NCBI RefSeq assembly: GCF_000477435.1
Contig: NC_022576.1
Coordinates: forward strand, 2,852,001 to 2,916,000
Length of the DNA stretch: 64,000 nucleotides
Reading direction: 5' to 3'
From: Candidatus Symbiobacter mobilis CR
GTDB lineage: Bacteria > Pseudomonadota > Gammaproteobacteria > Burkholderiales > Burkholderiaceae_C
Positions within the stretch are counted from its first letter, which is position 1; each line of letters opens with the position of its first letter. Made by a program: the position numbers and the translations under genes. The notes beneath the pieces are model-generated. The model was given only the letters and a program-made list of their open reading frames with translations. It was not told the origin of the DNA and did not search any database. Of this stretch, positions 35,283 through 58,069 are shown in pieces.

Positions 35283-35357
35283 GGTGCAATCCCGGTACGA
35301 AAAGGGTGCCGGAGTGTATCGACCGCCCCCACGGAAACCCTGCATCCCGCCCATGCC

Positions 35358-36893
35358 ATGAGTACACCTGACCTTCCCATCTCCCTGTGCAGGGATCTCG
35401 ATCCGTTTTCGCGTCGCTGTTCGGAGTCTTCGGCGGGGCTGGCCGTGCTCGTCATCGAAGACGAGCCGGGAGACTATGCGTTGATCGCTTCGTACTTGCG
35501 GCATTTGTGCGGTCCCAACCATAGCGAGCCGCGCATCGAATGGGCCAAGACCCTTGCCCAGGGGGTTGGCGCCGCAACGCGAACGCGCTTCGATGTCGTA
35601 CTTCTCGACCTTTCTTTGACCGATTCCAGCGGTTTGACCACCGTGGCGACTGTCACGGCAGCCGTTGCGGGCACGCCTGTCGTGGTGTTGACGGGCCACG
35701 ACGACGACGCCCTTGCCATGGCGGCCATTGCGGCAGGGGCACAGGACTACCTGGTCAAGGGCGAAATCGATTCCCGGTCACTCGGCCGTGCTGTGCGTTA
35801 TGCGCTCGCACGCAGTGGCTTGGAATCGCAATTGCAACTCTTTGAGGTCGCGCTGCACTCTGCCGCCAACGGCGTCATCATCACCGACATTGATGGGCGC
35901 ATCGAATGGGTCAACCGCGCTTTCATCGACATGACGGGGTATGACCTCGACGAATCCTTGCACCATCGCCCGGGGGAGCTGTTGCATTCGGGCAAGCAGC
36001 CGACTGTGTTTTATGAGCGGATGTGGAACACGATCCTTGCCGGGAAAGTGTGGTCGGAAGAGCTTGTCAATCGGCGCAAGAATGGGAGTTATTACGACGA
36101 GCACATGGCCATTTCTCCCGTGCGGATGCACGATGCAAGCATTCGGTACTTTGTCGCGATCAAGCAGGATGTCACCGCACGCCGTCAGGCCCAGCAGCGC
36201 TTGGAGCAGAGCGAAGAACGGCTGGATTTGGCGCTCCTTGGGTCGGATTTGGGGATGTGGGATATGTACCCTGCCACAGGCACGCTGTATCTCAGCGCCA
36301 AGGCTTACGAAATTCTGGGCTTGCCCCCCAATGGCGCGAGGGAAGACGCAGGTTGGTTCGAAGACTTGCTACACCCTGACGACGCAGGGCCACGTCGCGA
36401 TGCCCTCGAAGCCCACTTGCGCGGCGATACCCAGGATTACCACGTGGAATTTCGCATGCACCACCAGAATGGGCACTGGGTCTGGTTGCGCTTGCGCGGC
36501 AAGATCGTTGCGCGCAACGCCGACGGTACTCCGCTGCGCGTGGCCGGCACGATGCAGGACATCAGCCTGGAAAAGCGCCTCAAATTGGAAGGCAGCGATT
36601 TGTTGTTGCGCATCGAATCGATGATCGGGCAGCTCGGTTCGCACGCTGCAATGCGTCCCGTGGAACCTGGGCCACCCATTGCCCTCAGCCGCCGTCAGCG
36701 CGACGTACTTGCCTTGGTAGCACGGGGAATGACCTCAATGCAGATCGCCAGCCAGCTCCACATCAGCACGGCCACCGCAGCCACGCATCGGCGCGACCTC
36801 ATGCGCAAGCTCGATTTGCACAGTGTGGCAGAGCTGACACGCTACGCCATCGACCACAAAATCGTCCCTCCCATCGCTCCGCGCAAGCGCTAG
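35358..36893 (+). CDS. Response regulator: REC-PAS-PAS-LuxR HTH
   Basis: A 511-residue protein: REC at about 28-150 (VLVIEDEPGD, VVLLDLSLTDSSG, VVLTGHDDD, KGEID), PAS at about 160-280 (ITDIDGRIEWVNRAFIDMTG), a second PAS of the fold-3 type at about 285-410 (GSDLGMWDMYP) and a LuxR/GerE helix-turn-helix at about 440-505 (LSRRQRDVLALVARGMTSMQ, STATAATHRRDLMRKL). It is the only DNA-binding output in the signalling run, so it may set transcription for the cluster or for remote genes. The start ATG at 35358 has no strong ribosome-binding site. Its REC belongs to the same subtype as those at 43834 and 48615. Confidence 0.88.
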   Translation: MSTPDLPISLCRDLDPFSRRCSESSAGLAVLVIEDEPGDYALIASYLRHLCGPNHSEPRIEWAKTLAQGVGAATRTRFDVVLLDLSLTDSSGLTTVATVTAAVAGTPVVVLTGHDDDALAMAAIAAGAQDYLVKGEIDSRSLGRAVRYALARSGLESQLQLFEVALHSAANGVIITDIDGRIEWVNRAFIDMTGYDLDESLHHRPGELLHSGKQPTVFYERMWNTILAGKVWSEELVNRRKNGSYYDEHMAISPVRMHDASIRYFVAIKQDVTARRQAQQRLEQSEERLDLALLGSDLGMWDMYPATGTLYLSAKAYEILGLPPNGAREDAGWFEDLLHPDDAGPRRDALEAHLRGDTQDYHVEFRMHHQNGHWVWLRLRGKIVARNADGTPLRVAGTMQDISLEKRLKLEGSDLLLRIESMIGQLGSHAAMRPVEPGPPIALSRRQRDVLALVARGMTSMQIASQLHISTATAATHRRDLMRKLDLHSVAELTRYAIDHKIVPPIAPRKR

Positions 36894-37207
36894 GCGCTGC
36901 ACAGCCGTTGCGTGGGGCGACGGGTATGCCCATGCTACTGGCTGTGGACTACTGGTTACTCGCCGCAACGAAGCTGGGTACGTTATTACTGTTTCTCTGG
37001 TATTTCTATCCTGCATATAAGGTAGGGCACAGGGACTTTGCCTTGCTATAGTGCTGTGTAGCCACGGCGATTGCAGCGTGTAGTACGCATCTAGGCGCTA
37101 TGCCGGGCCGTTGGTTGTGGGGGCGGCGTCTGGCGCTCCTTTTTTTTCGAGCAATGGAGCAATGGCGCAATGGCGTATTGGTGCATTGATGCATTGGTGA
37201 TGTCGCG
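36894..37207. other. 314-base intergenic region with octamer repeats before the large kinase gene
   Basis: No ORF or RNA gene is recognised. The left half is AT-richer than its surroundings (TATAAGG at 37016-37022 and TATAGT at 37048-37053 are possible -10 boxes, without convincing -35 partners). The right end has a T8 run at 37140-37147 and the octamer array at 37149-37196. It separates the LuxR-type regulator from the kinase run, so a promoter here is likely. Confidence 0.5.
37149..37196. repeat. Six degenerate tandem octamers upstream of the Cache/PAS kinase
   Basis: Consecutive 8-base units read GAGCAATG, GAGCAATG, GCGCAATG, GCGTATTG, GTGCATTG and ATGCATTG, ending 11 bases before the kinase ATG. 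The strict 8-base period is not codon-like. Confidence 0.75.
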
Positions 37208-40200
37208 ATGAAAGTTCCTGCCGGACGGACCGGGTATTGGGATGAGGGGGCGCGTCTTCCCGTGCCAAAGGCTTCCATGGTGATGTTGGTCGGTGCGCTG
37301 GTTTGCCTGCTGGTCATGCTGGGCTACTTCGCGCAGTTCAGCTACCGCAACGCTGTCGAGGCTGTCGAGGTGGAAACACGCAACCTGACAGCCGTCATCG
37401 AGTCCCGGTTGTCGAGCGAGTTTTCCCGCGTCGATGGGATGCTGGCCTTTGTGGTGCGCGAGATTCGCGCTCGGCCTGCTTTGCTCCAATCCCCCCAGGA
37501 CTTGGAAGAGCAATTGGCGCCGCGCATCGGTCAGATGGTGCGTACTTTTCCCGAGCTGTGCGGCATTTACATTTTTGATGCTGCCGGGGAGATGCGGCTG
37601 GCATCCACTCCCGGACAAGAGGCCTTCAATATTGCCGACCGTCCGCACTTTTTGGCGCTGCGGGACGATTCCCATGCCACCATTTCGTTTTCGGATCTCG
37701 TCGTTTCCCGGGCCACGCACCTGTGGTCGCTGGTGCATATGCGCAGCATCCGCGATGAGCAAGGTCGTTTTCTTGGTGTCGTTGCAGCGTCGATTCAGCT
37801 TGAGCGGCTCACTGTCATGTTCCGCACCCTCAATGTCGGTTCCACGGGGGTGACACAGCTTCGACGCAGCGACAACTTTCGGCTGATTGGGCAGATTCCG
37901 CAATTCGAGGCTGACCAGTACAACCAGGTCATTCCTCCCTCGCATCCCGTGCGCCAGCGCATCGAATCCGGTGAGAAAGGCGGAACACTCACCCTCATTG
38001 ACCCTGCCGACGGCAAGAGCCGCATTGCCAGTTTTTTGCTACTGCCCCGCTTTCCTTTGTACGTCCAGGTTTCCATTTCCGAAGAAGATTACCTGGCGGG
38101 CTGGCGCCAACAGGCGACCATTGCAGCAGGGGTGGCGATAGTCCTGTTGTTTGTATTTGGCGCTGCCATTTGGCATTTGCACCGCACCACCAGCATCGCA
38201 GGCACTGCAGCGCGAAATTTGCGGTTGAGCGAAGCGCGGTTCCGGCATTTGGCGGAAAGCTCCCCTTCCGGCATTTGGCAGGCCGACAGCGAAGGCAGGC
38301 TTGCATACGTCAGCCCACGCTGGAGCGTCATTACGGGGATCGGCATTGAATCTGCGCGACAGTGGGGGTGGAATCGTGGCATCCATCCGGCGGATAGGGA
38401 TCGGGTCGAGCTGGCATGGCAAGATACCGTGGCGCATAACGCGCTGTCGTTCCAGATGGAATTTCGCCTGCTACGCCCGGACGGCAGCGTAGTGTGGGTG
38501 CTGTGCCTGGCCACGTCGATCCGCGAAGAGGGGGATATCGCCCCGAGCTGGATCGGCACGTTCACCGACATCAGCCACCAGATTGCGATGCGGGAAGCCC
38601 TGCGCGCCAATGAGGATCTCAAAACCTCGATCCTTGATGCCGTTCCTGCGACGATCGCCGTGCTCGACTTTACCGGCAGGATCATCGAGACCAATGCGTG
38701 GTGGAGGCGCTACGCCAGCGACAACAGCCCGATGCCCACCGGTGCGGCCCCCAATACGCAGACGGGCGCCAACTATCTTGCCGTCTGCGACGCTGCCGGA
38801 AAAACCGATGACAACGCTGCCGCAGCCGCGCAGGGCATTCGCGATGTGATCGACGGGCGACAGGCGCGTTTCGACCTCGAATACCCCTGCCCCACACCTA
38901 CCAAACAGCTTTGGTACGCCATGTGCGTCACTCCCCTGGGGACAGGGAGCCAGGGCGTAGTCGTATCGCACACAGACATTACCGAACGCCACGATGCCCA
39001 TGAACGGCTGCGCAAAATTGCCTCGCACGTCCCCGGCATGGTGTACCAATACCAACGGTGGTCCGATGGGCGTCATGCCATGCCATACGCCAGCGATGGC
39101 ATCGAGTCGGTTTTCGGGGTGTCTGCGCAGAGTGTGGTCGAGGACGCTACGCCGGTCTTCCGGTCCATCCATCCCGACGATTTGTCTATCCTGCAAGAGT
39201 CCATCGGCATATCGATGCGCGATTTGTCCCTCTGGCGCTCGCTGTTCCGCGTCCACCATCCCGATGGGCGGATGCTCTGGGCCGAGGGCGAATCCACGCC
39301 GGAGCTACAACCTGATGGCAGCGTAGTTTGGCATGGTTATATCCGCGACATCAGCGAGCGCAAACAGCTCGAAGACGCGTTGACCGCCGAGAGGGAACTC
39401 TTCGTCGGTGGGCCGGTGGGGGTGCTCGTCTGGCGTGCTGATGAACACTGGACTCTCGAATATGCCTCCGCCAATATCCATATCGTCATGGGGTACCAGG
39501 CTACCGAGATGACCGACACCGACTTCCGGTATGTCCGTTGCGTTCACCCGGACGATCTGGAACAGGTGGGGCAAGAGGTAGCCGGGTACTTGGCCGACCC
39601 CCAGTGCAAGACTTGGGAACAGCGTTACCGCATCGTCTGGCCGGATGGCAGCGTGCATTGGCTGTATGACTTCACCGTTGCAGAGCGGGACGCCAGCGGT
39701 CATCCGCTGCGCTTGCGTGGCTACGTTACGGATCAGACCGAACAACACAGGGCTTCACGTGCGCTAGAAGAGAACATGGCCACCCTGCAACTCGTCGTCG
39801 ACACGATTCCCCAGGGCATTTTCTGGAAAGATCCCCATGGCCGTTATTTGGGATGCAACAGGGTTTTCTCCCACTTTGCGGGGATGACCGATCCCATCGA
39901 CATCATTGGGCAGACCGACGCCGACCTTCGCTGGCCACCAACGATCGCCCAGGCGAACCGGGCGGACGACTACATCGTCCTCACGACGAACCGGCCCAAA
40001 ATCAACGCAGTCGAACAATTTCCCACGGAATCCGGGGGATGCCGTTGGGTGCAGTCTTCGCGGCTTCCGTTGCGGGATCCTTCGGGACGCCCTTTCGCCG
40101 TGCTGGGGGTGTTCGAAGACATTACCGAACGGCAGCAGGCCGAGGCAGCCATCCGCCACAGCGAGCAACGGCTCAACCAGGCGCAACGCATGGCGCAGGT

Positions 40201-41662
40201 TGGCAATTGGGAGCTTGACGTACAGACCAATATCCTGACTTGGTCCGACGAAATCTTCCGCATCTTCGAGATCGATAAAGCGCGTTTCGGCGCGAGCTAC
40301 GAGGCCTTTCTCAACATCATTCACCCTGATGACCGGGATCGAGTCCATGCTGCCTATACCCGCTCGCTCCAGACCAGGGAACCATACGGCATCGTCCATC
40401 GCCTGTTGTTGCCAGATGGGCGGGTCAAGCACGTTCGCGAACAGTGCGAAACCTACTTCGATAGCGACGGGAAAGCTTTGCGTTCCGTTGGCACGGTACA
40501 GGATGTCACCGACCGCACGCTGCTCGAACAGCAGCTTGTCGATGATCGGCAGCGGCTGACCAACATCCTCTGGGGTACCGGTGTGGGGACGTGGGAATGG
40601 AATGTGCAAACTGGGGAGATGCGATTCAACGAACGCTGGGCAGCGCTCATTGGTTACAAGCTGGAAGAGGTCGGCCCGCAAGACATCAATGCTTGGTTGC
40701 GGTTCGTGCATCCCGACGATCTGGCCGACAGCCAGCAAGCTTTGGACAGGCACTTTCGGGGCGAAAGCGAAGCCTACGAACACGAAGCGCGGATGCGCCA
40801 CAAGGATGGCCGCTGGGTCTGGGTGCTCGACCGGGGGCGGGTCAACACCTGGACGCAAGACGGTCGTCCCCTGTGGATGGCGGGCACACACTACGACATT
40901 ACGGCGCGCAAGGATGCGGAGGCGGCAATTCATGATTACGCCCAAGCATTGCTCCGCTCGAACAAGGAGCTGGAACAGTTCAGCTACAGCATTTCCCACG
41001 ATATGCGCCAGCCGCTGCGGATGATTTCCAGCTATCTGCAATTGCTGCAACTAAGCCTGGGCGATTCCCTTGACGAAGAGAAGCGCACCTATTTCGGTTT
41101 CGCCGTCGATGGCGCCAAGCGCCTGGATTCGATGCTGATGGGGTTGCTCGAATACTCGCGCGTGGGGCGCAAAAGCGACCAGCGTTCGTGGGTCGATAGC
41201 CGCACTGTGCTGGACGATGCACTCCTCTTCTTGCGCCCGCTTATCGCGGAAGCGCAAGCGCACGTGCATATCGAAGGCGATTGGCCCAGGCTCTACACCA
41301 ATCCGGACGAAATGCTGCGCCTGCTGCAGAACCTCGTTGCCAACGCCCTCAAATTTCGGATCGCCGAACGCCCGCCTGTCGTGGACATCGAAGGTACGGT
41401 GCGCGATGGGGTGTGGAAGCTGTGCGTGACCGATAACGGCGTCGGCATCGCGCCGGAACAGATCGGGCGGCTCTTCCAGGTCTTTCAGCGTCTGCAAAGC
41501 CGCGCCGATTACGAAGGCACGGGCATCGGGCTGGCGTTGTGCCGCAAGATCGTCGAACACCATGGGGGGCGTATCTGGGTTAGTTCCCCTGGGGAACGGC
41601 AAGGCAGCTCCTTCTGTTTTGACATTCCTCTGGCCGCCATGGAAGAGCAGGAGGCCGCGTGA
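37208..41662 (+). CDS. Cache-domain histidine kinase with seven PAS domains
   Basis: A 1484-residue inner-membrane sensor kinase. TM1 is at about 24-42 (MVMLVGALVCLLVMLGYFA), an extracytoplasmic dCache-like domain at about 46-298 (NIADRPHFLALRDD), and TM2 at about 302-323. Seven PAS domains follow at about 335-460, 465-590, 595-720, 722-850, 852-975, 978-1100 and 1103-1235. HisKA contains FSYSISHDMRQPLRMISSY, and the ATPase has LLQNLVANALKF, DNGVGIAP and GTGIGLALC. The phytochrome-type kinase core is intact, and there is no receiver domain, so phosphoryl transfer to the separate regulators nearby is expected. PAS signals are unknown; none shows an obvious cofactor residue. Confidence 0.9.
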   Translation: MKVPAGRTGYWDEGARLPVPKASMVMLVGALVCLLVMLGYFAQFSYRNAVEAVEVETRNLTAVIESRLSSEFSRVDGMLAFVVREIRARPALLQSPQDLEEQLAPRIGQMVRTFPELCGIYIFDAAGEMRLASTPGQEAFNIADRPHFLALRDDSHATISFSDLVVSRATHLWSLVHMRSIRDEQGRFLGVVAASIQLERLTVMFRTLNVGSTGVTQLRRSDNFRLIGQIPQFEADQYNQVIPPSHPVRQRIESGEKGGTLTLIDPADGKSRIASFLLLPRFPLYVQVSISEEDYLAGWRQQATIAAGVAIVLLFVFGAAIWHLHRTTSIAGTAARNLRLSEARFRHLAESSPSGIWQADSEGRLAYVSPRWSVITGIGIESARQWGWNRGIHPADRDRVELAWQDTVAHNALSFQMEFRLLRPDGSVVWVLCLATSIREEGDIAPSWIGTFTDISHQIAMREALRANEDLKTSILDAVPATIAVLDFTGRIIETNAWWRRYASDNSPMPTGAAPNTQTGANYLAVCDAAGKTDDNAAAAAQGIRDVIDGRQARFDLEYPCPTPTKQLWYAMCVTPLGTGSQGVVVSHTDITERHDAHERLRKIASHVPGMVYQYQRWSDGRHAMPYASDGIESVFGVSAQSVVEDATPVFRSIHPDDLSILQESIGISMRDLSLWRSLFRVHHPDGRMLWAEGESTPELQPDGSVVWHGYIRDISERKQLEDALTAERELFVGGPVGVLVWRADEHWTLEYASANIHIVMGYQATEMTDTDFRYVRCVHPDDLEQVGQEVAGYLADPQCKTWEQRYRIVWPDGSVHWLYDFTVAERDASGHPLRLRGYVTDQTEQHRASRALEENMATLQLVVDTIPQGIFWKDPHGRYLGCNRVFSHFAGMTDPIDIIGQTDADLRWPPTIAQANRADDYIVLTTNRPKINAVEQFPTESGGCRWVQSSRLPLRDPSGRPFAVLGVFEDITERQQAEAAIRHSEQRLNQAQRMAQVGNWELDVQTNILTWSDEIFRIFEIDKARFGASYEAFLNIIHPDDRDRVHAAYTRSLQTREPYGIVHRLLLPDGRVKHVREQCETYFDSDGKALRSVGTVQDVTDRTLLEQQLVDDRQRLTNILWGTGVGTWEWNVQTGEMRFNERWAALIGYKLEEVGPQDINAWLRFVHPDDLADSQQALDRHFRGESEAYEHEARMRHKDGRWVWVLDRGRVNTWTQDGRPLWMAGTHYDITARKDAEAAIHDYAQALLRSNKELEQFSYSISHDMRQPLRMISSYLQLLQLSLGDSLDEEKRTYFGFAVDGAKRLDSMLMGLLEYSRVGRKSDQRSWVDSRTVLDDALLFLRPLIAEAQAHVHIEGDWPRLYTNPDEMLRLLQNLVANALKFRIAERPPVVDIEGTVRDGVWKLCVTDNGVGIAPEQIGRLFQVFQRLQSRADYEGTGIGLALCRKIVEHHGGRIWVSSPGERQGSSFCFDIPLAAMEEQEAA

Positions 41663-43317
41663 CCCCCAGCCAGCGCAACACCCTGGCCAACCTTGGCGTG
41701 GCCGTGGCCTACGCGGGTTCCGGCGCGGTGGGCTTGTGGCTGGGTGGGATGGTGCAGGGCAACGTCACCTTGTTGTGGCCTCCAGCCGGCGTGGCCCTTG
41801 CGTGTGCCTGTCTATACGGTATGCGTATTTGGCCTGGTCTTGCGCTGGGTGCCTTTGCGGCCACGGCATCGACAGCGGCACCGTTGTCTTTCGCACTGTG
41901 GACGGCGGTGACCAACCCTCTGCCCGCCATCGCAACCGGATGGATCGTTCGACGCTTCCACGGCGGGAAAGCTCCGGAACTGGATCAGGTCGGTATGGCG
42001 ACTTTGCTGCTGGGCTTGGGCGCGCTGGTTACCCCGGCATTGGGTGCGCTGCTTGGCACTTGGGGCTTGTGGGTACATCACATGGTGGACGCAACGAATG
42101 GTTTCGGCGCGTGGGCATCCTGGTATGTCGGCGATGCCGTAGGGGCTGCATCCATCGCTCCCCTGCTGATATTGCTGTTACAACGGCGCTATGTGACCTG
42201 CCCCTGGCGCGAGCGCTTTGTGGAGATGTCGGTGTTCGGCCTGTTGCTGGCAGGGTTGGGGTACTGGATGGTCACGCACGACCTTGCCAACAGCCCCATG
42301 TTTGTTTTCGCTTTCGTTCTGACCGTCTGGGCGGCGCTGCGTTTTGGGGTGTTTGCCACCGTCATGCTGTCCGTGGTCATCAACGCATCTGTGATTGCCT
42401 CGACGCTGTCGCAGTCTGCAATGCTATTGCCGACTGCGCTGCTGCTGGGAACCTTGGGATTGACGCTGGAAATGTTGACGGTCAGCCTCACGGGGCTGAT
42501 TCTTTCTATCGCCGTTTCCGAACGGGACCATGCGCAGCGTGCCCAGGCTGCCACCATCGAATCCTTGCGTCAAGATGCCGATGCGCTGGCGCAAACCAAA
42601 GAAGCGCTGGCCCAGGCCCACCAGGATTTGCGGCGCTTTGCCGAAGTCACCGCGCACCACCTGCAGGAACCTGCGCGCAGACTGGGGAGTTATGCGGCAC
42701 GCCTGCAATCCCGTCTGGACGGAAAGATTGCTGACCCAGAAGTCGACATCAGCCTGCGATTCATCGTCGAACAGTCCACACGGCTGCAAGCACTGCTGCG
42801 GGATGTGGAACGGTACCTGGCTGCGGGAATGCCGCGTGGCGCGGTGGGGCGTTGTGAAGTTGCTCCCGTTCTCTCTCGCGTGCTCCAACGCATGGCGAAT
42901 GCCATTGCCGCCGCCGGGGCTGCCGTGCATACCGTCGGCGCGCTGCCACCGGTGTGGATCGACGCGCCACGACTGGCCGATTTGTTTGAGGTCTTGCTCG
43001 ACAACGCCTTACTACATGCTGGGTCAGTGCATGATCCCGTGCGTGCTACATTGCGCGTCACCATCGAAGGCGTGCTCGTCCAGGATGGTATGGCCCGCTA
43101 CCACGTCAGCGACAACGGCCACGGCATTGAAGCGCAGTACCGGGAGCGCGTGTTTACGCCCTTCGAGCGGTTGTGCGCACACAGCAGTAGCACCGGCATC
43201 GGCCTCGCCATCGTTCGGCGCATTGCCGAAAACTGCGGAGGTCGGAGCTGGATCGAAGAATCCCCCGGCGGCGGCTGCCGCGTCGTATTCGAACTTCCTG
43301 CCCAATCCATTCCATGA
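41659..43317 (+). CDS. MASE1-domain histidine kinase
   Basis: A 552-residue membrane kinase. About 290 N-terminal residues form the MASE1 sensor with eight or nine membrane helices (LLWPPAGVALACACLYGMRI, GGMVQGNVTLLW); a coiled coil at about 295-325 leads to HisKA with a variant H-box (VTAHHLQEPARRL, His retained), then an ATPase with LLDNALLHAG, VSDNGHGIE and STGIGLAIVRR. It starts with GTG, preceded by AGGAGG, within the stop of the upstream kinase (GTGA overlap), and its stop overlaps the next gene (ATGA), so translation is coupled on both sides. The ligand of MASE1 domains is generally unknown. Confidence 0.88.
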   Translation: MTPSQRNTLANLGVAVAYAGSGAVGLWLGGMVQGNVTLLWPPAGVALACACLYGMRIWPGLALGAFAATASTAAPLSFALWTAVTNPLPAIATGWIVRRFHGGKAPELDQVGMATLLLGLGALVTPALGALLGTWGLWVHHMVDATNGFGAWASWYVGDAVGAASIAPLLILLLQRRYVTCPWRERFVEMSVFGLLLAGLGYWMVTHDLANSPMFVFAFVLTVWAALRFGVFATVMLSVVINASVIASTLSQSAMLLPTALLLGTLGLTLEMLTVSLTGLILSIAVSERDHAQRAQAATIESLRQDADALAQTKEALAQAHQDLRRFAEVTAHHLQEPARRLGSYAARLQSRLDGKIADPEVDISLRFIVEQSTRLQALLRDVERYLAAGMPRGAVGRCEVAPVLSRVLQRMANAIAAAGAAVHTVGALPPVWIDAPRLADLFEVLLDNALLHAGSVHDPVRATLRVTIEGVLVQDGMARYHVSDNGHGIEAQYRERVFTPFERLCAHSSSTGIGLAIVRRIAENCGGRSWIEESPGGGCRVVFELPAQSIP

Positions 43318-43760: not shown

Positions 43761-43762
43761 TT

Positions 43763-43801
43763 TGCGATTCGTGCCTGCGATTCGTGCTTGCGATTCGTGA
43801 T
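43763..43801. repeat. Three tandem 13-bp repeats
   Basis: Units TGCGATTCGTGCC, TGCGATTCGTGCT and TGCGATTCGTGAT follow one another right after the response-regulator stop, in the 73-base gap before the REC-GGDEF-EAL gene. The period is not a multiple of three. Confidence 0.85.
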
Positions 43802-43833
43802 TACCACGGTGCCTTTCCCACGATGTATTCCTC

Positions 43834-48564: not shown

Positions 48565-48614
48565 CCGCACACGTGCAGCACATTTTTTCCCCCGTATTGC
48601 CACCAAGGATCGCC

Positions 48615-50999
48615 ATGAAGGCCTGGACAGGAGCATCCCGAGATCGCTGGTCAATCCTCGTCGTAGAGGATGACCCTGGAGACTTCGAACTGCTGCGCAC
48701 GGCGCTGACAGCTCCTGGCGCACTGGTCGTGCTGCGGCCCGACGCCATCGTCTGGGCGCGTACCCTCAAGGAAGCCATCGCCGCAGCACGCCAAGCTCCT
48801 CCCAGCGCGGTGTTACTCGACCTTTCGCTGCCGGATTCTGCTGAGGGACATACGGTGCAGCTCATGCGCGCTGCGGCCCCGGAATTGCCCATCGTCGTAC
48901 TCACCGGCCATGATGATCTCAGCCTCGTGGCCCAGGCGCTCGAAGCTGGCGCGCAGGATTACCTGGTCAAGGATCACTATCACGGCGATACCTTGCACCG
49001 GACGATCCGCCACGCCATCATTCGCCACGAACTCGAACGCAAGGTGTCGCTGGATCAAGAACGCTTCCGCGACTTTGCCAGCGCCAACTCGGACTGGTGG
49101 TTCTGGGAGATCGACGCGCAACTGCGTTTCACATGGTTCTCTCCGAATGTGGAGCAGGTGGTAGGCCGCCCGATCGACAGGATGTTGGGCAAACAGTTTC
49201 AGGAACTGGCGCAGCCCATTTCGGACGACGAGCGCAAAGTGTGGGAACGGCACCGGCTGGACTTGGCCCATCAGCGGCCATTCAAGCAATTCGAGTATTG
49301 CGTGGCGCTGCTTGATGGCTCGCTACAGTGGTTGAGCATCAGCGGCGTGCCGATCTTCGACCACACCGGCGCATTTCGGGGATACCGGGGAACAGGGATC
49401 AACGTTACCCGGCGCAAACTGGCCGACGAAGAACTCCACCGCAACGAGCGCACCTTGGTGGCTGCCATCGAAGCCGTCGACGAAGCGTTTGTGCTCTACG
49501 ACGCAGAAGATCGCATGATCTTCTGCAACGAGAAATTCCGTGCCCTGCATGCAGCTTCTGTCGATCTCATCGCCCCTGGCGTGCGGTATGAAGACTTCTT
49601 GCGCGCGGGAGCCTGGCGCGGCCAGTACCCCGAAGCCATCGGAAGGGTCGACGCCTGGGTGGCCGAACGCATGGCCGAGCACCGGCAGCCGGAGCTGGAT
49701 CAAATCCAGCGCACCTCTGCGGGCCGGTGGATGCGCACCATCGAACGCAAGACGATCGACCGGCACACCGTGGGTTTCCGCATCGACGTCACTGCGCTGT
49801 ACCACGCCAAGGAAGCCGCCGAAGCCGCCAACATTGCCAAGAGCCGATTTTTGGCAACGATGAGTCACGAGATTCGCACCCCGATGAACGGCATCATGGG
49901 CATGGCGCAGCTCCTGCTCAAGTCTGACCCCGACAAGGATCAGTGGCGCAGCTATGCGCGTTCGATCCTTTCTTCGGGGCAGGCGCTGTTGATGTTGCTC
50001 AACGACATTCTCGACCTCTCCCGCATTGAGGCAGGCCGCCTGACTTTGGAGTCGGTCGTCCTCCAGCCCGAGATCATCTTGCGTGAAACGCGCGACCTGT
50101 TTGGCGCGGCAGCGATGGGCAAGCGCCTACGGCTGCAATACCGCTGGAATGGCCCCGAAAGGCAACTCTATCGCTCTGACGCATACCGCATCCAGCAAAT
50201 GCTCTCCAACCTGGTGGGGAACGCGATCAAATTCACCCAGCATGGCTTTATAAGCATTGAGGCAACGGAAGCCGAGCGACACGCTGACATAGCCGTCCTG
50301 GAGTTTGCGGTGAGTGATTCGGGCATTGGTGTTCCTGCCGACAAACTGGGCCTGCTTTTCAAACCCTTTTCGCAGGCCGATAGCACCACGACGCGCCAGT
50401 TTGGGGGGGCAGGTCTGGGGCTTTCCATCGTCTCCAATCTGGCCAAGGCCATGGGTGGGGATGTGGGCGTGCAAAGCGCCCCCGGGCAAGGCTCGCGCTT
50501 CTGGTTCCGGTTGCGCATGCAGGTCGTCGGCGAAGCCGAAGAGACTGCCTGGTATACGCAGCTTGCGGCCCACGACTCGCAGGAGGTATCAGGGTCGTTG
50601 CGCGGCTATGTCACCGTGGTGGAAGATAACCTCGTCAACTGCATGGTGATCGAGGAAATGTTGGTGCTGCTGGGCGTCAACGTCGCCGTGTACCACGATG
50701 GGCAGCAGGCCGTGGAGGCCATCCGCCAAGGTACGCAAACCGACGTCATCCTCATGGATTTGCAAATGCCCATTCTCGACGGGTACGAGGCTACCAAACA
50801 GATTCGGGAATGGGAACAGGAACATGACTTACCCCGGCGGCCCATCGTCGCGCTCACTGCCGATATCTTCGCTGGGGAGGAACGCCGGTGCTTTGACTGC
50901 GGCATGGATGACCTCCTTACCAAACCCTTGGGTTTGGACGGATTGGCTACGGCGCTGCGCCGCTGGCTACCGCTACGGTCTTTGGCGGATGAAGACTGA
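48615..50999 (+). CDS. REC-PAS-PAS-histidine kinase-REC hybrid
   Basis: A 794-residue soluble hybrid kinase. REC1 at about 12-140 (ILVVEDDPGDFELL, VLLDLSLPDSAEG), PAS at about 150-275, a second PAS of the PAS-7/12 type at about 285-400 (AIEAVDEAFVLYDAEDRMIF), HisKA with FLATMSHEIRTPMNGIMGMA, ATPase at about 515-635 (MLSNLVGNAIKF, SDSGIGVP, GAGLGLSI) and REC2 at about 665-785 (TVVEDNLVNCMV, VILMDLQMPILDG, IVALTADIF). AAGGA lies ahead of the ATG at 48615. With receivers at both ends it can both accept phosphate from and feed the other kinases. It has no membrane segment and no HPt domain; an HPt protein is not found in the window. Confidence 0.9.
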   Translation: MKAWTGASRDRWSILVVEDDPGDFELLRTALTAPGALVVLRPDAIVWARTLKEAIAAARQAPPSAVLLDLSLPDSAEGHTVQLMRAAAPELPIVVLTGHDDLSLVAQALEAGAQDYLVKDHYHGDTLHRTIRHAIIRHELERKVSLDQERFRDFASANSDWWFWEIDAQLRFTWFSPNVEQVVGRPIDRMLGKQFQELAQPISDDERKVWERHRLDLAHQRPFKQFEYCVALLDGSLQWLSISGVPIFDHTGAFRGYRGTGINVTRRKLADEELHRNERTLVAAIEAVDEAFVLYDAEDRMIFCNEKFRALHAASVDLIAPGVRYEDFLRAGAWRGQYPEAIGRVDAWVAERMAEHRQPELDQIQRTSAGRWMRTIERKTIDRHTVGFRIDVTALYHAKEAAEAANIAKSRFLATMSHEIRTPMNGIMGMAQLLLKSDPDKDQWRSYARSILSSGQALLMLLNDILDLSRIEAGRLTLESVVLQPEIILRETRDLFGAAAMGKRLRLQYRWNGPERQLYRSDAYRIQQMLSNLVGNAIKFTQHGFISIEATEAERHADIAVLEFAVSDSGIGVPADKLGLLFKPFSQADSTTTRQFGGAGLGLSIVSNLAKAMGGDVGVQSAPGQGSRFWFRLRMQVVGEAEETAWYTQLAAHDSQEVSGSLRGYVTVVEDNLVNCMVIEEMLVLLGVNVAVYHDGQQAVEAIRQGTQTDVILMDLQMPILDGYEATKQIREWEQEHDLPRRPIVALTADIFAGEERRCFDCGMDDLLTKPLGLDGLATALRRWLPLRSLADED

Positions 51000-51243
51000 G
51001 TCGGCGTGACGAATCGTTGCGCCTGTGTACGCTTGTCAGGTTTTCGGGGGCTACACGTATACTCATTCGATGCCCGACGCCCCATCCTGAACGCTTACTG
51101 TTTGGGTGGACGCTGCGCAGAACCACTGTGTGTCATGACCCTCCTTTCCAGCTTTTGTGGTTCCCCAGTCGGCGCTTTCGGTGCGATGGGGCCGTGGGTC
51201 GCCGTGGTTCTTTGGGCGGGCTGTTCCCCGTGATGGTGTCGTG

Positions 51244-54200
51244 ATGGATTCCGTCGCGCTTCAACGTCGCTACGTCATCGGCATGGGGGCTTCTGCCGGT
51301 GGGCTGGAAGCCTTGACGCAGCTCGTTGCCGAACTTCCTACCGAATCCGGGTCGATCTTCGTCGTTGCGCAGCATTTGTCTGCGTCGCACCGCAGCATGA
51401 TGTCGGAATTGCTTGCGCACCAGACAACGCTGGCTGTGCGCGAGATCGTCGCCGACGAAATTCCCCTTCCCAACATCGTTTACACCGTTCCTGCCGGGAC
51501 GAACCTGGTGTTTCGCGAGGGACGTTTCCACCTGGAAACCCCGCCTCCGGAAGTCGTCCCCAAGCCATCGATCAACCTGCTCTTCGAATCGATGGCGCAG
51601 GAGTTTGGCGCAGGCGCCGTCGGCATCGTCCTTTCGGGAACGGGGTCGGACGGTACTGCCGGTTTGCAAGCCATCAAGGCGGCGGGAGGCATGACTTTCG
51701 TCCAGACCCCGGAATCCGCCAAGTACGACGGCATGCCGAGGTCCGCCATCGAAGCTGGCGTCGCGGACTACGTGGCGCCGCCGGTCGAAATCAGCCACGT
51801 GCTCGATCACTTGCTCCGGCTTCCCGCAGAATCGACCTTCCCGGCGGGCAAGCCTGAAGAGCATCGCGTCACCTTCGCTGATCTGCTCGAAAAGGTCCGC
51901 CAGCATACGCAAATCGATTTTTCGAGCTACAAGCCGGCAACGGTGCAGCGGCGCCTGCAACGCCGGATGAACACCACCAAGACCTTCACGCTGGAGGCCT
52001 ACCTGGCTTACGTCGATACGCACCCCGACGAGCTGGACGCCCTTGCGCACGAAGCCTTGATTTCTGTCACCGAGTTCTTCCGCAATCCTGAGGCGTTTCG
52101 CGCCCTGCAGCCGCATCTGTTGGACATCGTCGAGCAAAAGGTGCCGGACGACGAACTGCGGGTGTGGGTGGTCGGTTGCGCATCCGGGGAAGAGGCCTAC
52201 TCCATGGCCATTCTCTGCATGGAAGTGATCGCGGCTGTGGGCAAGCCCCTGCGGCTCAATGTTTTTGCCACCGATATTGATAACGATGCGCTGGCGTTGG
52301 CGCGGCGTGGGTACTACGGAAAGAGTGCCTTGGCAGAACTGCCCGGTCCCTATCTGGAACGCTACTTCCAGCCGCACAACAAGGGTTACGAGGTGTCCAA
52401 GGCGCTGCGGGACTGTGTTGCCTTCGCCAGGCAGGACATCACGACCGACCCCGCCTTTCCCAAGCTCGACCTCGTCTCGTGCCGCAATGTCCTGATCTAT
52501 TTCAACAACGACCTGCAAGCCAAGGTGCTGGCCAATATCCACCGGTGCTTGTTGGAGCACGGGCTGCTGTTTCTCGGGCACTCCGAGACGATCCATCAGC
52601 AGGAAACGCTGTTTTTGACTATTGACAACTACGCCAAGATCTTCCGTTCGCGCGGTGCCGTTGCGGTTCCGACGACGTCCAAGATCATCCGTGGTCAGCT
52701 CAAGCGTAGTGCTGATAGCCTACGCAACTATGCGTCGTCGCAAGAATCGGCTTTTTTGGGGGCATTGTCCGAGCGAGTCGGCACGTTGCTGCTCATCGAC
52801 GGCAGCTTCAAAATTTTGCACACCCATGGGGATGTCGGCCATTTCATCAGCTTTCCCAGTGGTACCCCGGAGCTGCATCTTGCCCGCCTGATCGTCCCGG
52901 AGTTCAGCGCGGAGGTATCGACGACGTTGTACCGTGCGCAGCGCCGCAAGGTCACGGCGTTTAGCCGCAGTTGCGCGATTTCTTCGCTGGATGATGCGGT
53001 ATGGCGGCTCGTGATCCATCCACTGGGGCTGCGCGCAGACCAGGAGCTATTCCTCGTCGTCTTCGAGCCTGCGGATCACCCCTCGCCGCCCATTTCCGAG
53101 GAAGATGCCGAAGTGGGCGATGCGGCCATGCAGGCAGAGCAGTCCATGGCCTACGAATTGGCCCTGGCCCGCGAGCGCTTGCAGACGATGGCCGAGGACT
53201 TGAGCGCGTACAAGGAGGAAATGTCCGCGCTCACCGAGGAATTGCAGACCTCCAACGAAGAGCTTCAGGCATCGAACGAAGAGCTGATCAGCGCCAACGA
53301 CGAAAGTCAGCACAAGTCTGCCGAACTCGCTGCGATCAACAGCGACTTTGAAAGCCTGTTCAATACCTTGGAATTCCCCGTTCTGCTGCTGGACAACCAG
53401 CTCCAGCTCAAGCGTGCCAACGGGGCAGCCATGCGGCATTACGCCTTGTCGATGTCATCGACGGGGCAGCATTTTGCGCAGCTTGATTTGCCTTACCACC
53501 TGCGCCAGCTTGAAACCCAGATCGGCAACGTCGTTTTTCATGCCGCTCGGGAGAGCATCACGGTAGATGGGGAAGATCGTGTCTACCAAGTCTTCATCAC
53601 TCCGGTGGTGACGGGTTATCCACCCATAGCGCAGGGGGTGGTATTGGCCGTGGTGGACGAAACGGAACTGGTGACCGCGCAGCAAAAAACCACGGAGAGT
53701 GAAGAACGTCTGCGTTCGATCATGCATCACTCGATGTCGCTGGTCTCGGTCAAGGATGCCACCGGGTGCTACGAATTTATCAACCACCGTTTTGAAACGA
53801 TCTTCGGCCTGCATGCCGAAGACGTGTTGGGCAAAACGGATCAGCAGATCTTTGGCTTGGAACTCGGTCAGAAACTGCGTGCGGGCGATCTGGACGTCAT
53901 GCTCAAGCTGGCCGCGATCGAAACGACCGAGGAGATCGCCTTGCCAACGGCGACGCTGTGGCTCAACAGCATTCGCTTCCCCATCTTCGATGCTGGTGGC
54001 AACCTCCGTTCGGTATGCACCCAGTCCCAGGACATTACCTACCGGCACGACGCGGACTTGCAGTTGCGACTGGCTTCGAGCGTCTTCGAACGCGCCGGGG
54101 AAGCCATCGTCATCACCGACGCCAAAGCCCGCATCTTGCGCGTCAACGAGGCTTTCACCAAAATCACGGGCTATGCGGCCGAAGAGGTGGTGGGACAAAA

Positions 54201-55743
54201 TCCCCGCGTCCTCAAATCTGGCAGACATCTGCCACAGTTTTACGAGTCCATGTGGCACAGCCTGACCGAGCAAGGTTCCTGGCAAGGGGAAATCGTCAAC
54301 CGGCGTCGTAGCGGGGATGTCTACCCTGAATGGTTGACGATCAATGCGGTCAAGAACGACCAAGAGCAGATCGTCCACTTCGTCGCCATATTCAGCGACA
54401 TCTCTGCGCTCAAAAGTTCGCAGCAACGCATCGAATTCCTGGCAACCCACGACGAGCTTACGGGCTTGCCCAATCGGAGCTTGCTCAATGATCGGCTCCG
54501 GCAAGCCTTGTTTTTGGCGCAGCGCCAGACGCATAAGCTCGCCGTGCTGTTCATCGACCTCGACAATTTCAAGACGATCAACGATGGGCTGGGGCACGAT
54601 GTGGGCGATGGCCTGCTCAAACAGGTGGCGCAGCGCTTGCGGCAGTGCATTCGCGAGGCCGACACGCTGGCGCGCCTGGGTGGCGACGAGTTCGTTGCGC
54701 TGTTGCCTGCCGTACATCTTGAAGAAGTCAACCAGATCGCAGCACGCATCATCGACAACATGGCTACCGCCTTCACCGTCGATGCCAATGTGTTGCACGT
54801 ATCCGCCAGCATTGGCATCAGCGTCTACCCCGAGGACGGGGACGACACCGTCAGCCTGCTGCGCAATGCCGATACGGCCATGTACCGCGCCAAAGATCGG
54901 GGGCGGAACCAGTACCAGTTCTTCGTCGAAGAAATGAAAGTGCTGGCCCTGCAGAGGATGGCGATGGAAACAGGCTTGCGCTCTGCGTTGGAACACGACC
55001 GGCTGTATATGGTCTACCAGCCCAAAGTGGACCTGCGTACCGGTCAGGCGATTGCTGCCGAGGCGTTGTTACGGTGGAAAGATCCCATACTGGGCGATGT
55101 GCCTCCCTCGCAGTTCATCCCCATCGCAGAAAACTGCGGGCTGATCGATGCCGTGGGGAACCGTGTCCTTGACATGGTCTTGCGGCAAATCGCACGCTGG
55201 CGCGAGCAAGGTCTGCAAGTTCCGCGCATCTCGATCAACGTTTCCGCGCACCAGTTGCGTGATCCAGACTTCGTGCAGCACCTCATCGCCCGTCTGGAGT
55301 ACCTCCACGTTCCTGCATCGAATATCGGCATCGAACTCACGGAAAGCGTGTTGATGCAGCGTATTGATGTCGTGCGTGAACGGCTCATCCAACTGGCCGC
55401 ACTGGGTACGACCCTGAGCGTCGATGACTTTGGCACGGGGTATTCCTCGCTTGCGTACCTGCGTAAGCTCCCCTTGCACGAGCTGAAGGTGGATCGCAGC
55501 TTCGTGGATGGCATCGCCGTCGAACGCGATGACCGGTCTATCGCCAAGACGATCATCGACATGGCGCACGCGCTGGGGTTGCAGGTCGTTGCAGAGGGTG
55601 TGGAAACGCAGGAGCAGCTCCAAGTCCTCGAACAGGATGGTTGCGATGTCGTCCAAGGCTATCTGTATCACCGGCCCATGGGGGCGGCAGAATTCGAGAA
55701 GCTCCTTGCTGCTCCCAGCGTGTCCTTCGATACCGAGGCCTGA
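51244..55743 (+). CDS. CheB-CheR-PAS-PAS-PAS-GGDEF-EAL fusion protein
   Basis: A 1499-residue protein. CheB methylesterase at about 8-195 keeps its triad segments GASAGG, AQHLS and LSGTGSDGTAG. The CheR methyltransferase follows at about 205-465 (VTEFFRN, VVGCASGEEAYSMAI, FATDIDNDAL, SCRNVLIYFNN). A long coiled coil at about 632-700 (EELQTSNEELQASNEELISA) leads to PAS domains at about 697-815, 817-935 and 937-1058, then GGDEF (RLGGDEF, READ I-site) and EAL (AEALLRW, LTES, DDFGTGYSSL, AEGVET) to the end. Every catalytic signature is intact. No CheA, CheW or receptor gene is nearby, so it likely acts in a non-flagellar or sensory pathway. The start lacks a good ribosome-binding site; a weak promoter (TTGTCA-19-TATACT, 51033-51063) lies in the 244-base gap upstream. 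Confidence 0.93.
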   Translation: MDSVALQRRYVIGMGASAGGLEALTQLVAELPTESGSIFVVAQHLSASHRSMMSELLAHQTTLAVREIVADEIPLPNIVYTVPAGTNLVFREGRFHLETPPPEVVPKPSINLLFESMAQEFGAGAVGIVLSGTGSDGTAGLQAIKAAGGMTFVQTPESAKYDGMPRSAIEAGVADYVAPPVEISHVLDHLLRLPAESTFPAGKPEEHRVTFADLLEKVRQHTQIDFSSYKPATVQRRLQRRMNTTKTFTLEAYLAYVDTHPDELDALAHEALISVTEFFRNPEAFRALQPHLLDIVEQKVPDDELRVWVVGCASGEEAYSMAILCMEVIAAVGKPLRLNVFATDIDNDALALARRGYYGKSALAELPGPYLERYFQPHNKGYEVSKALRDCVAFARQDITTDPAFPKLDLVSCRNVLIYFNNDLQAKVLANIHRCLLEHGLLFLGHSETIHQQETLFLTIDNYAKIFRSRGAVAVPTTSKIIRGQLKRSADSLRNYASSQESAFLGALSERVGTLLLIDGSFKILHTHGDVGHFISFPSGTPELHLARLIVPEFSAEVSTTLYRAQRRKVTAFSRSCAISSLDDAVWRLVIHPLGLRADQELFLVVFEPADHPSPPISEEDAEVGDAAMQAEQSMAYELALARERLQTMAEDLSAYKEEMSALTEELQTSNEELQASNEELISANDESQHKSAELAAINSDFESLFNTLEFPVLLLDNQLQLKRANGAAMRHYALSMSSTGQHFAQLDLPYHLRQLETQIGNVVFHAARESITVDGEDRVYQVFITPVVTGYPPIAQGVVLAVVDETELVTAQQKTTESEERLRSIMHHSMSLVSVKDATGCYEFINHRFETIFGLHAEDVLGKTDQQIFGLELGQKLRAGDLDVMLKLAAIETTEEIALPTATLWLNSIRFPIFDAGGNLRSVCTQSQDITYRHDADLQLRLASSVFERAGEAIVITDAKARILRVNEAFTKITGYAAEEVVGQNPRVLKSGRHLPQFYESMWHSLTEQGSWQGEIVNRRRSGDVYPEWLTINAVKNDQEQIVHFVAIFSDISALKSSQQRIEFLATHDELTGLPNRSLLNDRLRQALFLAQRQTHKLAVLFIDLDNFKTINDGLGHDVGDGLLKQVAQRLRQCIREADTLARLGGDEFVALLPAVHLEEVNQIAARIIDNMATAFTVDANVLHVSASIGISVYPEDGDDTVSLLRNADTAMYRAKDRGRNQYQFFVEEMKVLALQRMAMETGLRSALEHDRLYMVYQPKVDLRTGQAIAAEALLRWKDPILGDVPPSQFIPIAENCGLIDAVGNRVLDMVLRQIARWREQGLQVPRISINVSAHQLRDPDFVQHLIARLEYLHVPASNIGIELTESVLMQRIDVVRERLIQLAALGTTLSVDDFGTGYSSLAYLRKLPLHELKVDRSFVDGIAVERDDRSIAKTIIDMAHALGLQVVAEGVETQEQLQVLEQDGCDVVQGYLYHRPMGAAEFEKLLAAPSVSFDTEA

Positions 55744-55817
55744 CTCCGCTACTTTCTGCACTCCTTGCATCGTTTCGTTTTCCCTGTCCTTCCACTTTTT
55801 ATGGAGAGCACCCTGCC

Positions 55818-57308
55818 ATGACCGACATGATCCTGATCGAGAAAATGCTTCGTGGTTGCGAGGCAGAAAAACTGCATCTTTCCGGCGCGATCCAGCCTTT
55901 TGGCGCGCTTCTTTGTTTGCAGAGTGAGGGGGGCACCATTAGCCATGCCAGCGCGAACCTTGCGGAATTTCTCTCCCTGGATCCGCAGGCCGTCATTGGT
56001 CGCACGCTCGATCAGGTCGTCCCCTCGCTGTCTCGTGCCATTTCTGTGCTCGCCACGACACCGGGGGAGACCGCCGTCGTTCGCAACGTGATGCAGAACG
56101 CACAGGGCCATATCGATGCGCTCCTGATACGTGGCGAGGATTTCGTCGTTGTTGAGCTTGAATACAACACCCCGCCCGCAGAGCCGATCCCCGTACAGCA
56201 CTTGCAGCAGCCTTTTCTCAGCGCGCCCCAGAGCGCCGAGGACTGCGACCGCTACCACCAGCATTTGGTGGAATCTTTCCGCAAGGTCATCGGCTATGAC
56301 CGGATCATGATGTACCGATTCACGCCGGATTGGTCCGGCGAGGTCGTCGCCGAGGCCACCGCCCCCGGGGTAGGGAGCTATATGGGGCTGCGCTTTCCGG
56401 CCAGCGACATCCCGGCCATTGCGCGCAACATTTACATGCTCAATCCCGCACGCATGATCCCTGACACCCAGGCTATGCCGGTGCCGGTACTCGGTTCGGA
56501 AGAACGTGTCCCGGATCTGACCCGCTCGGATGTGCGCAGCGTCTCGCCTGTCCATCTGGAATATCTGGCGAACATGGGGGTGCGTGCCTCGTTCTCCGTC
56601 CCTATCCGGATTGCCGGGCGGCTGTGGGGCCTGGTTGCGTGCCATCACCGTACCCCTTTGCCGCTCACTCCCGATCATCGCAACGCTTGCGTGATGCTCG
56701 CCAGCACCTATACCTTGGGCTTGTCGACCTATATCTCCAGCCACCGGCTCAAGGTCATCGACAGCCTCGACCGCAAGATCGATGCAGTCTTGGAAAAATT
56801 GGGTACCTACACCGACCCGCTTGACGGCATTGAAATCAACGGCCAAGCCTTGTTGGACACCGTAGGCGCCAACGGTTTCGCCATGGCGATCAAAGAAGAT
56901 GTCGTCATCAATGGCGACGGCCCGGGGGTGGATGGCCTGAGCGTGATCGATGACTGGTTCGTCAACCACTGCAATGAGCTGGTGCTGAGTTCGGATCATT
57001 TGTCCGACCTGTTCCCCGATCGGCCCGAAGTGCTCCATGCAGCCAGCGGCATGCTCGCGATCAAGGCCCAGTCCCCACGCTCGGGCTGGGTGCGGTTTTA
57101 TTGGTTCCGCGAAGCCGAGCCTCAACACGTGGCATGGGCTGGAAATCCCAACAAGCCCATGATCGAAAATGCTGGTGCCATGGCACTCTCCCCCCGCCGC
57201 TCTTTCGAGCGCTGGGTGGAAATCAAGAGCGACTACAGCCGTCCATGGTCCCGCGAAGAGCAGATCGTGGCCGCCAAGTTCCGTAACAACCTTCTACGCT
57301 GGCTATGA
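55818..57308 (+). CDS. bphP: Bacteriophytochrome photosensory module (PAS-GAF-PHY) without output domain
   Basis: A 496-residue protein that ends right after the PHY domain, where most bacteriophytochromes continue into a histidine kinase. Biliverdin should attach to Cys14 (RGCEAEKLHLSGAIQPFG, matching the N-terminal Cys of BphPs). The PAS domain spans about 20-120 and GAF about 135-310, with FPASDIPAIAR and SPVHLEYLANMG chromophore-pocket motifs. PHY covers about 320-495, with the tongue segment GWVRFYWF and PRRSFERWVE. All key residues are present, so it should be photoactive; signal output must pass by protein contact. GGAG stands 11 bases before the ATG. The heme oxygenase gene overlaps its stop. 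Confidence 0.92.
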   Translation: MTDMILIEKMLRGCEAEKLHLSGAIQPFGALLCLQSEGGTISHASANLAEFLSLDPQAVIGRTLDQVVPSLSRAISVLATTPGETAVVRNVMQNAQGHIDALLIRGEDFVVVELEYNTPPAEPIPVQHLQQPFLSAPQSAEDCDRYHQHLVESFRKVIGYDRIMMYRFTPDWSGEVVAEATAPGVGSYMGLRFPASDIPAIARNIYMLNPARMIPDTQAMPVPVLGSEERVPDLTRSDVRSVSPVHLEYLANMGVRASFSVPIRIAGRLWGLVACHHRTPLPLTPDHRNACVMLASTYTLGLSTYISSHRLKVIDSLDRKIDAVLEKLGTYTDPLDGIEINGQALLDTVGANGFAMAIKEDVVINGDGPGVDGLSVIDDWFVNHCNELVLSSDHLSDLFPDRPEVLHAASGMLAIKAQSPRSGWVRFYWFREAEPQHVAWAGNPNKPMIENAGAMALSPRRSFERWVEIKSDYSRPWSREEQIVAAKFRNNLLRWL

Positions 57309-57913
57309 CTGAAGAAACCACTCCTCCGGCCAAGACTGAGCTGCACCGCCGTATGCGGCAAGCAAGCAAGTTGGAGCACCGTACTATCGACCACCACCCT
57401 CTGCTGGCCCCGATGCTCAAGGCATCCCTGACCAAAGAACAGTATGCCCAGGCACTGGGAGCGCTGCACAGCGTGCATGCGGAAGCAGAGTCGCACATCC
57501 ATGCCACGCTGGACGCGCATCCCGAATGGGCGGGGTTCCGGCCCCGGCGCAGGCTGCATCTGCTCGAAGCCGATTTGCAGGCGCTGGGTGCGCAGCCTTT
57601 TGCCAGCCCGGTGGGTTTTTCGGCCCCGCGCAGCATTGGCGAGCTTGTCGGCTTGCTGTACACGGTCGAAGGGTCGAACCTGGGTGGGCAGGTGATTGCA
57701 CGCACTGTGCGCGATTTGGGCCATGGGGATCTCCCCATGCAATTCTTCGATGGGCACGGCGAAGCAGCGCGGGAACTGTGGGAGCAATTCCTGCAGTACG
57801 CCAACCGAATGTGCCCGGAGGAAGAATACGACGTAGCAGCCGCGACGGCCTATAAGCTGTTCAAAAGCATCGAAGCCCATCTCGACAAGGCTTGGGCAGC
57901 AGCGGGGCAGTGA
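57305..57913 (+). CDS. bphO: Biliverdin-producing heme oxygenase
   Basis: A 202-residue heme oxygenase that opens heme to biliverdin, the phytochrome chromophore. The proximal heme ligand is His25 (SKLEHRTIDHHPLL), and the distal helix motif reads YTVEGSNLGGQVIA. Its ATG lies in the stop region of the phytochrome gene (ATGA overlap) and no separate ribosome-binding site is seen, so expression is coupled to bphP. Length and motifs fit BphO of proteobacteria. A terminator follows about 80 bases later, closing the signalling run. Confidence 0.93.
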   Translation: MTEETTPPAKTELHRRMRQASKLEHRTIDHHPLLAPMLKASLTKEQYAQALGALHSVHAEAESHIHATLDAHPEWAGFRPRRRLHLLEADLQALGAQPFASPVGFSAPRSIGELVGLLYTVEGSNLGGQVIARTVRDLGHGDLPMQFFDGHGEAARELWEQFLQYANRMCPEEEYDVAAATAYKLFKSIEAHLDKAWAAAGQ

Positions 57914-57995
57914 CGCAGGACTGGTCACTGCGCCTTGCCGAAACCCCAGTCTGAATGCTGGTTCTGGTTGGTTGCTGTGAGCATCAAAGGATTGG

Positions 57996-58022: not shown

Positions 58023-58069
58023 GGTGCGTTTGCCTATGCGGGGCGCGTGGCTTGGCGCAGGCAGGATAT

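Follow-up and report, generated by a model that had tools for sequence, protein, structure and literature searches.

A bacteriophytochrome without an output domain and its conserved CheB-CheR-GGDEF-EAL neighbour in 'Candidatus Symbiobacter mobilis'

Introduction

How can a light receptor that lacks an output domain influence the cell that makes it? The question is raised by a locus in 'Candidatus Symbiobacter mobilis', the flagellated, non-photosynthetic rod of the phototrophic consortium 'Chlorochromatium aggregatum'. We analysed 64,000 nucleotides (nt) of contig NC_022576.1 (positions 2,852,001 to 2,916,000 of the forward strand, called the window here; coordinates below are those of the window). 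Three adjacent genes at 51244-57913 encode a large protein that combines the chemotaxis enzymes CheB and CheR with GGDEF and EAL domains (the hub), a bacteriophytochrome that stops after its PHY domain, and a heme oxygenase. The pairing of hub and phytochrome recurs in other bacteria, and the hub is probably the output that the phytochrome lacks.

Four phytochromes were found in S. mobilis in 2013 and were proposed to be its light sensors for taxis (PMC4053972). The phytochrome Cenrod_2641 was characterised in that study and noted to be without output domains; once expressed it showed a photocycle (706/754 nm) and rapid reversion in the dark, the heme oxygenase Cenrod_2642 was active in E. coli, and the phytochrome and heme oxygenase genes were described as an apparent operon (PMC4053972). 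These are the same two genes as in the window: the published primers for Cenrod_2641 are exact there and span 55818-57308, and those for Cenrod_2642 match and span 57353-57913. The CheB-CheR gene goes unmentioned in the accessible text of that paper (PMC4053972), which does not take up the other upstream genes either, and our full-text literature search, the reach of which left out most subscription journals and preprints, found no description of the phytochrome/CheB-CheR pair. Cenrod_2641 grouped with Gammaproteobacteria when the sequences of 2013 were used (PMC4053972); the closest relatives of the window phytochrome are uncultured betaproteobacterial genomes, at 73% identity.

Anatomy of the three-gene module

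The module and the signals that may delimit it are listed here.

51033..51063, plus strand: possible sigma70-type promoter of the module, with a 19-nt spacer, picked out by eye within a 244-nt gap
51244..55743, plus strand: CheBR hub of 1499 amino acids (aa), with the order CheB-CheR-PAS-like-helix-three PAS-GGDEF-EAL (Pfam, predicted structure)
55818..57308, plus strand: output-less bacteriophytochrome Cenrod_2641, PAS-GAF-PHY, 496 aa (Pfam, primers, tree)
57305..57913, plus strand: heme oxygenase Cenrod_2642, overlapping the phytochrome gene by 4 nt (Pfam)
57994..58016, plus strand: intrinsic terminator closing the module (fold energy against shuffles)

The terminator, already called strong in the first-pass annotation of this DNA, is real (-29.9 kcal/mol, z -5.5). 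Our promoter scan, which allowed spacers of 16-18 nt, did not report the pair of elements at 51033-51063, where the spacer is 19 nt.

Pfam places no HisKA or HATPase output after the PHY domain of the phytochrome, and because the protein ends there, this photosensor cannot signal down its own chain. The best Foldseek match of its predicted structure is a phytochrome module (TM 0.87). Across 23 aligned output-less phytochromes the N-terminal Cys and the PRxSF tongue are present in every row, the P-x-S-D-I-P motif reads PASDIP in 21 and PDSDIP in two, and the C-terminal ends fall within six residues of the same point. If these motifs have the photosensory roles that we take them to have, the window protein qualifies, as judged by its sequence, as a bacteriophytochrome photosensory module. 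In a tree that omits L098 and L102, the 23 lie on one side of a branch with 100/100 support and 11 longer phytochromes on the other.

In the hub, CheB is followed by CheR_N and CheR in a single chain, which makes it a CheB-CheR fusion by Pfam. The domain calls of the first-pass annotation were otherwise borne out by Pfam, but it had treated the CheB-CheR fusion and a second GGDEF-EAL protein as two products, and they are one protein, encoded by 51244-55743. Canonical chemotaxis CheB has an N-terminal receiver domain that controls the esterase, whereas Pfam finds no Response_reg domain in the hub of the window. The predicted structure of hub residues 463-1065 contains a helix of 77 residues, and residues ~499-609 are PAS-like from predicted secondary structure alone; this model was searched whole, a search in which only the last PAS was well tested. 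Among 19 aligned hubs, a set that omits the partial or split hubs of L016, L049 and L052, the CheB Ser/His/Asp residues are kept in 17 and the CheR motifs in 18; GGDEF, the I-site, EAL and the catalytic residues are likewise kept in 18, L021 having a kinase instead. We assume the usual roles for the CheB, CheR, GGDEF and EAL motifs, and on that assumption the GGDEF-EAL residues are consistent with an active enzyme. The hub is not the sole methyltransferase of S. mobilis, since there are eight other CheR matches in the genome.

The hub PAS at ~946-1065 resembles the FAD-binding PAS of NifL (37% identity; NCBIfam), with Aer and LOV domains matching equally well. Through this domain the hub might sense redox as well.

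Adjacency of hub and phytochrome genes

Searching named genome contigs with only the phytochrome as query gave 15 output-less loci, and a hub gene adjoins the phytochrome in 14 of them (one hub is cut by a contig end in L016, one is internally deleted in L012 and one has a kinase output in L021). The fifteenth, L023 (9572-10333), is a remnant: CheB begins and then passes into PHY sequence, apparently through a deletion within this gene pair. Four genome searches in partly overlapping samples (100 relatives, and 369, 398 and 399 genomes of the class, phylum and order, the last three including S. mobilis itself) added nine output-less loci: L013 appears again as one of them, another lacks upstream sequence, and the other seven all carry the hub. 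With the window included, all 22 informative loci, which come from alpha-, beta- and gammaproteobacteria, have the hub beside the output-less phytochrome, a count that leaves out L047 (the duplicate of L013), the L023 remnant, and L048 and G474:C6, where the contig starts in or just before the phytochrome. Sensor and hub are separate genes in all 22, the hubs usually end in GGDEF-EAL, and the order is hub then phytochrome in 21. The carriers among named isolates are Skermanella aerolata and two Paramagnetospirillum.

Longer phytochromes served as a control. None of 13 (open frames of 824-1752 aa, three from S. mobilis), called output-bearing by frame length alone, has a CheB-CheR neighbour, L096 and L103 lying near contig ends with one flank short. 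A Fisher test of 22/22 against 0/13 gives p=7e-10, not corrected for kinship. The plasmid records hold one Deinococcus phytochrome, annotated as a histidine kinase (E 2e-75), that is not among these 13.

Rarity accompanies this constancy. At E<=1e-75 the module occurs in at least two of 368 other genomes of the class, at least two of 397 of the phylum and at least two of 398 of the order, lower bounds from searches that scored 3-4 phytochrome candidates per genome, and two in the hub search. In 20 of the 21 loci listed for spacing (L020 is not among them) the distance between the hub stop and the first in-frame phytochrome ATG is -8 to +76 nt, and L049 has no such ATG within range; the two genes overlap by 4 nt in L009, L010, L013 and L055. 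No conserved upstream regulatory motif was found among five sequences. The co-location of light input, receptor methylation and cyclic di-GMP (c-di-GMP) turnover to which the first-pass annotation drew attention survives only in 51244-57913, conserved across Proteobacteria, and not in the whole 22 kb to which it was assigned.

Some of these neighbourhoods have features of their own. The window (59957-61969) and L011 (1292-3505) both have an HtpG gene close to the module, at 76% identity, the only shared flanking gene seen. In L018 (Paramagnetospirillum marisnigri, 8463-12036) a hybrid kinase and a REC-HD (HD_5) protein, which may be a further c-di-GMP enzyme, come next after the pair. In L021 (11495-14290) the output-less phytochrome has directly behind it another phytochrome, joined to a histidine kinase, and a partial heme oxygenase match. 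The same-genus genome G011 carries two output-less phytochromes (L048 and L049). A whole-hub relative with no phytochrome neighbour sits near transposases and a PAS chemoreceptor on the Shewanella conjugative plasmid pSX1_LC6 (L109:7974-12524).

Parallel divergence and natural hub variants

Phytochrome distances correlate with hub distances over 16 of 19 pairs (r=0.90, 0 of 999 permutations as high), L021, L012 and L054 having been dropped from this run. Taken domain by domain over all 19 pairs, r is low for PAS9, GGDEF and EAL (0.28-0.39), where the output of L021 differs; over the 16 pairs it is 0.74-0.94 for all domains. The hub tree omits L012 and holds two unlinked hubs only, both on long branches.

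Natural variants show which parts of the hub can be lost. L021 keeps hub residues 1-947 and has GAF-HisKA-HATPase-REC as its output, L012 has an in-frame deletion of most of CheB and all of CheR, L054 has a hub without CheB, and L049 has a split hub made of CheB-CheR-PAS and a separate PAS-GAF-PAS-GGDEF-EAL protein. Because the variants lose or swap them, the methylation enzymes and GGDEF-EAL both seem dispensable for the partnership. Residues ~641-947, a coiled coil and two PAS domains, are common to L012, L021, L054 and the rest, and for that reason this segment is our best guess for the place where the phytochrome would dock, the natural deletions being its one support.

A proposed light sensor acting in trans

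We think it fairly probable that the three-gene module is a functional unit, in which the output-less phytochrome serves the adjacent hub as a detachable light sensor and obtains its biliverdin from the heme oxygenase. The heme oxygenase would supply the chromophore, and the phytochrome would act in trans on the hub; we infer that the two proteins interact physically. Driven by light, the phytochrome would change c-di-GMP synthesis or breakdown by the hub, and the swimming of S. mobilis could then be biased with light intensity via c-di-GMP, one candidate route for the gathering of the consortium in the light. Receptor methylation by CheB-CheR is perhaps also set by the phytochrome. In a bolder version, doubtful in our view, a separate and transferable phytochrome would fit exchangeable CheB-CheR-PAS hubs and control c-di-GMP as well as receptor methylation, such that light would directly reset chemotactic adaptation.

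Such a module would be a c-di-GMP phytochrome of a type already known, but one that works in trans and together with receptor-methylation domains. The c-di-GMP phytochromes BphG1 of Rhodobacter and PadC of Idiomarina likewise have PAS-GAF-PHY tied to GGDEF or GGDEF-EAL, and the Idiomarina structure 5llw is among our structure matches. In those proteins the tie is covalent, whereas here the sensor and the enzyme are separate and the enzyme also has CheB and CheR. For the GGDEF-EAL half of the hub the best NCBIfam model is the phosphodiesterase DibA, with a score of 663 that is below the cut-off of 980, and close solved structures include the motility regulator 4rnh, which we take to be MorA; DibA and MorA resemble this half of the hub but have no CheB-CheR in the matched part. 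A photoreceptor without an output domain is known to act through a separate protein in the PixD-PixE pair of Synechocystis (PMC4053972). That pair consists of a BLUF protein and a receiver protein, whereas the partners proposed here are a phytochrome and a CheB-CheR-GGDEF-EAL hub that would interact.

How the rod of the consortium converts light into swimming is the question on which the pair bears: the one S. mobilis phytochrome with a measured photocycle has no output, and the hub is its probable partner. With a probable partner, a pair that recurs in named isolates and a candidate docking segment, the question is reduced to two proteins. On the bolder version, the phytochrome would give the swimming of S. 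mobilis in the consortium a direct light input; a naturally split red-light c-di-GMP system that worked in trans would also be useful for optogenetics.

Several observations weigh against the phytochrome-hub partnership and the proposed docking segment. Adjacency and parallel divergence can arise from co-transfer and co-expression alone. The lowest domain correlations over the 16 pairs are those of the coiled coil/PAS10 (0.738) and PAS4 (0.755), and because it is the coiled-coil and PAS segments that score lowest, domain-wise divergence gives the docking site no support. Identity to the window hub over residues 641-947 is 31 and 23-30% in L054 and L055, below the 55-56% of GGDEF in the same two hubs, and in L049 only the part to ~820 aligns, so that the second PAS of the segment does not. 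The deletions in L012 and L054 could be assembly faults since both come from draft assemblies. Gene arrangement is not uniformly tight: the spacing is 74 nt in S. mobilis itself, in L020 (Skermanella) the phytochrome gene comes first and about 200 nt separate the two, the CheB-CheR gene of the split L049 hub is one gene away, and the L052 hub reads as two open reading frames (a frameshift or a split). The hub also exists without the phytochrome. L089, L090 and the Shewanella plasmid pSX1_LC6 have the same hub architecture and no phytochrome neighbour, and L091 has CheB-CheR-PAS with a kinase output, again with no phytochrome beside it.

Alternative readings

One alternative is that the pair is co-inherited and co-expressed for adaptation to light, with the phytochrome signalling via an unlinked protein, in the manner of PixD with PixE, and the hub responding to a ligand of its own (flavin redox at the NifL-like PAS, for example). 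We regard this as rather unlikely: no other gene was seen to be constant beside the phytochrome, even heme oxygenase being without a match in the fetched neighbourhoods of L013, L020 and L053, and the hub is retained even where its catalytic parts change.

A second alternative concerns the surroundings of the module. The first-pass annotation reported eleven plus-strand genes in 35358-57913, all of which are present, and read them as possibly an integrated 22-kb light or redox decision module. The eight genes upstream of the hub gene are as follows.

35358..36893, plus strand: REC-PAS-PAS-LuxR (GerE) regulator, 314 nt from the next gene and outside the conserved module (Pfam)
37208..41662, plus strand: dCache-multi-PAS histidine kinase, dCache_1 just below the Pfam cut-off; not with the module elsewhere
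41659..43317, plus strand: MASE1 histidine kinase (Pfam)
43314..43760, plus strand: RcpA, a single receiver (Pfam)
43834..46293, plus strand: REC-PAS-GGDEF-EAL-CZB protein, GGDEF intact and EAL motif degenerate
46283..46789, plus strand: RcpB, a single receiver, 50% identical to RcpA over the receiver
46786..48564, plus strand: CHASE histidine kinase (Pfam)
48615..50999, plus strand: REC-PAS-PAS-HisKA-HATPase-REC hybrid kinase, start placed by eye from the ribosome site, with GTG 48573 possible

There is something to be said for an operon of all eleven genes. They share a strand, and the many overlaps of 4-11 bases that had been claimed exist at five of the ten junctions (-4, -4, -11, -4 and -4). 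Terminator-like sites in 34500-54400 are no more frequent than in shuffles (12 against 17.2), and the fold of the one in the 314-nt gap is no stronger than that of shuffled sequence (z 0.26). One type of His segment is common to the Cache, MASE1 and CHASE kinases, and we take it to resemble that of phytochrome kinases; in the MASE1 kinase, for which Pfam gives no HisKA match, the segment can be recognised by eye from its likeness to those of the neighbours. With RcpA and RcpB, presumably Rcp1-type receivers, these three kinases would fit a local phosphorelay, and the upstream block looks like an ordinary branched one. The other five junctions are gaps of 314, 73, about 50, 244 and 74 nt, and because of them a single operon is uncertain.

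Gene density and conservation speak against the operon. The genome has 76 HATPase_c and 48 GGDEF matches, and we placed 70 of the 76 kinase-type and 47 of the 48 GGDEF positions at random in 2000 trials, the rest being omitted or merged; the test covers kinases and GGDEF proteins, with receivers, strand and overlaps outside it. Six such genes in 22.5 kb were reached in 16% of the placements and four kinases in 59%, and the clustering of kinase and GGDEF genes alone is not beyond chance in this signalling-rich genome. In synteny flanks that extend at most 10 kb and stop earlier where a contig ends, no orthologue of the eight upstream genes lies beside the relatives of the last three. The matches to upstream genes in these flanks are generic kinase/receiver similarity, the best being 44% over ~230 residues of a kinase (L019). 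Two of the four upstream kinases were searched for in 59 other same-genus genomes, at strict thresholds and with at most 22-23 candidates scored per genome: nothing reached E<=1e-100 for the CHASE kinase, and at E<=1e-60 three genomes matched the MASE1 kinase, over its kinase half only and with no full-length counterpart. Density, conservation and spacing (the gaps of 314 and 244 nt) led us to reject the 22-kb run as a single operon; the decision module that had been proposed for it is not supported, an integrated operon of all eleven genes is very improbable, and the run is for the most part a local accumulation of signalling genes.

Least tenable is the view that the output-less phytochrome is decayed or passive (a biliverdin sink or the leftover of a kinase phytochrome), which its missing output domain might suggest but which sits badly with a protein that photocycles (PMC4053972) and with a truncation point and photosensor residues kept in 23 of 23 aligned rows.

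Other features of the window

A search for RNA families in 34000-59000 found none. In the REC-PAS-GGDEF-EAL-CZB protein (43834-46293) both the EAL and the EGVE motifs are altered; since GGDEF is kept and EAL is degenerate, the protein is more likely to be a cyclase than a phosphodiesterase. On the minus strand, 33879-35699 is an open reading frame of 606 aa with no Pfam or NCBIfam match, and it shares sequence with the beginning of the LuxR-type gene, which is read from the opposite strand. Imperfect short direct repeats are visible by eye in the intergenic stretches 37150-37205, 43757-43800 and 58065-58100.
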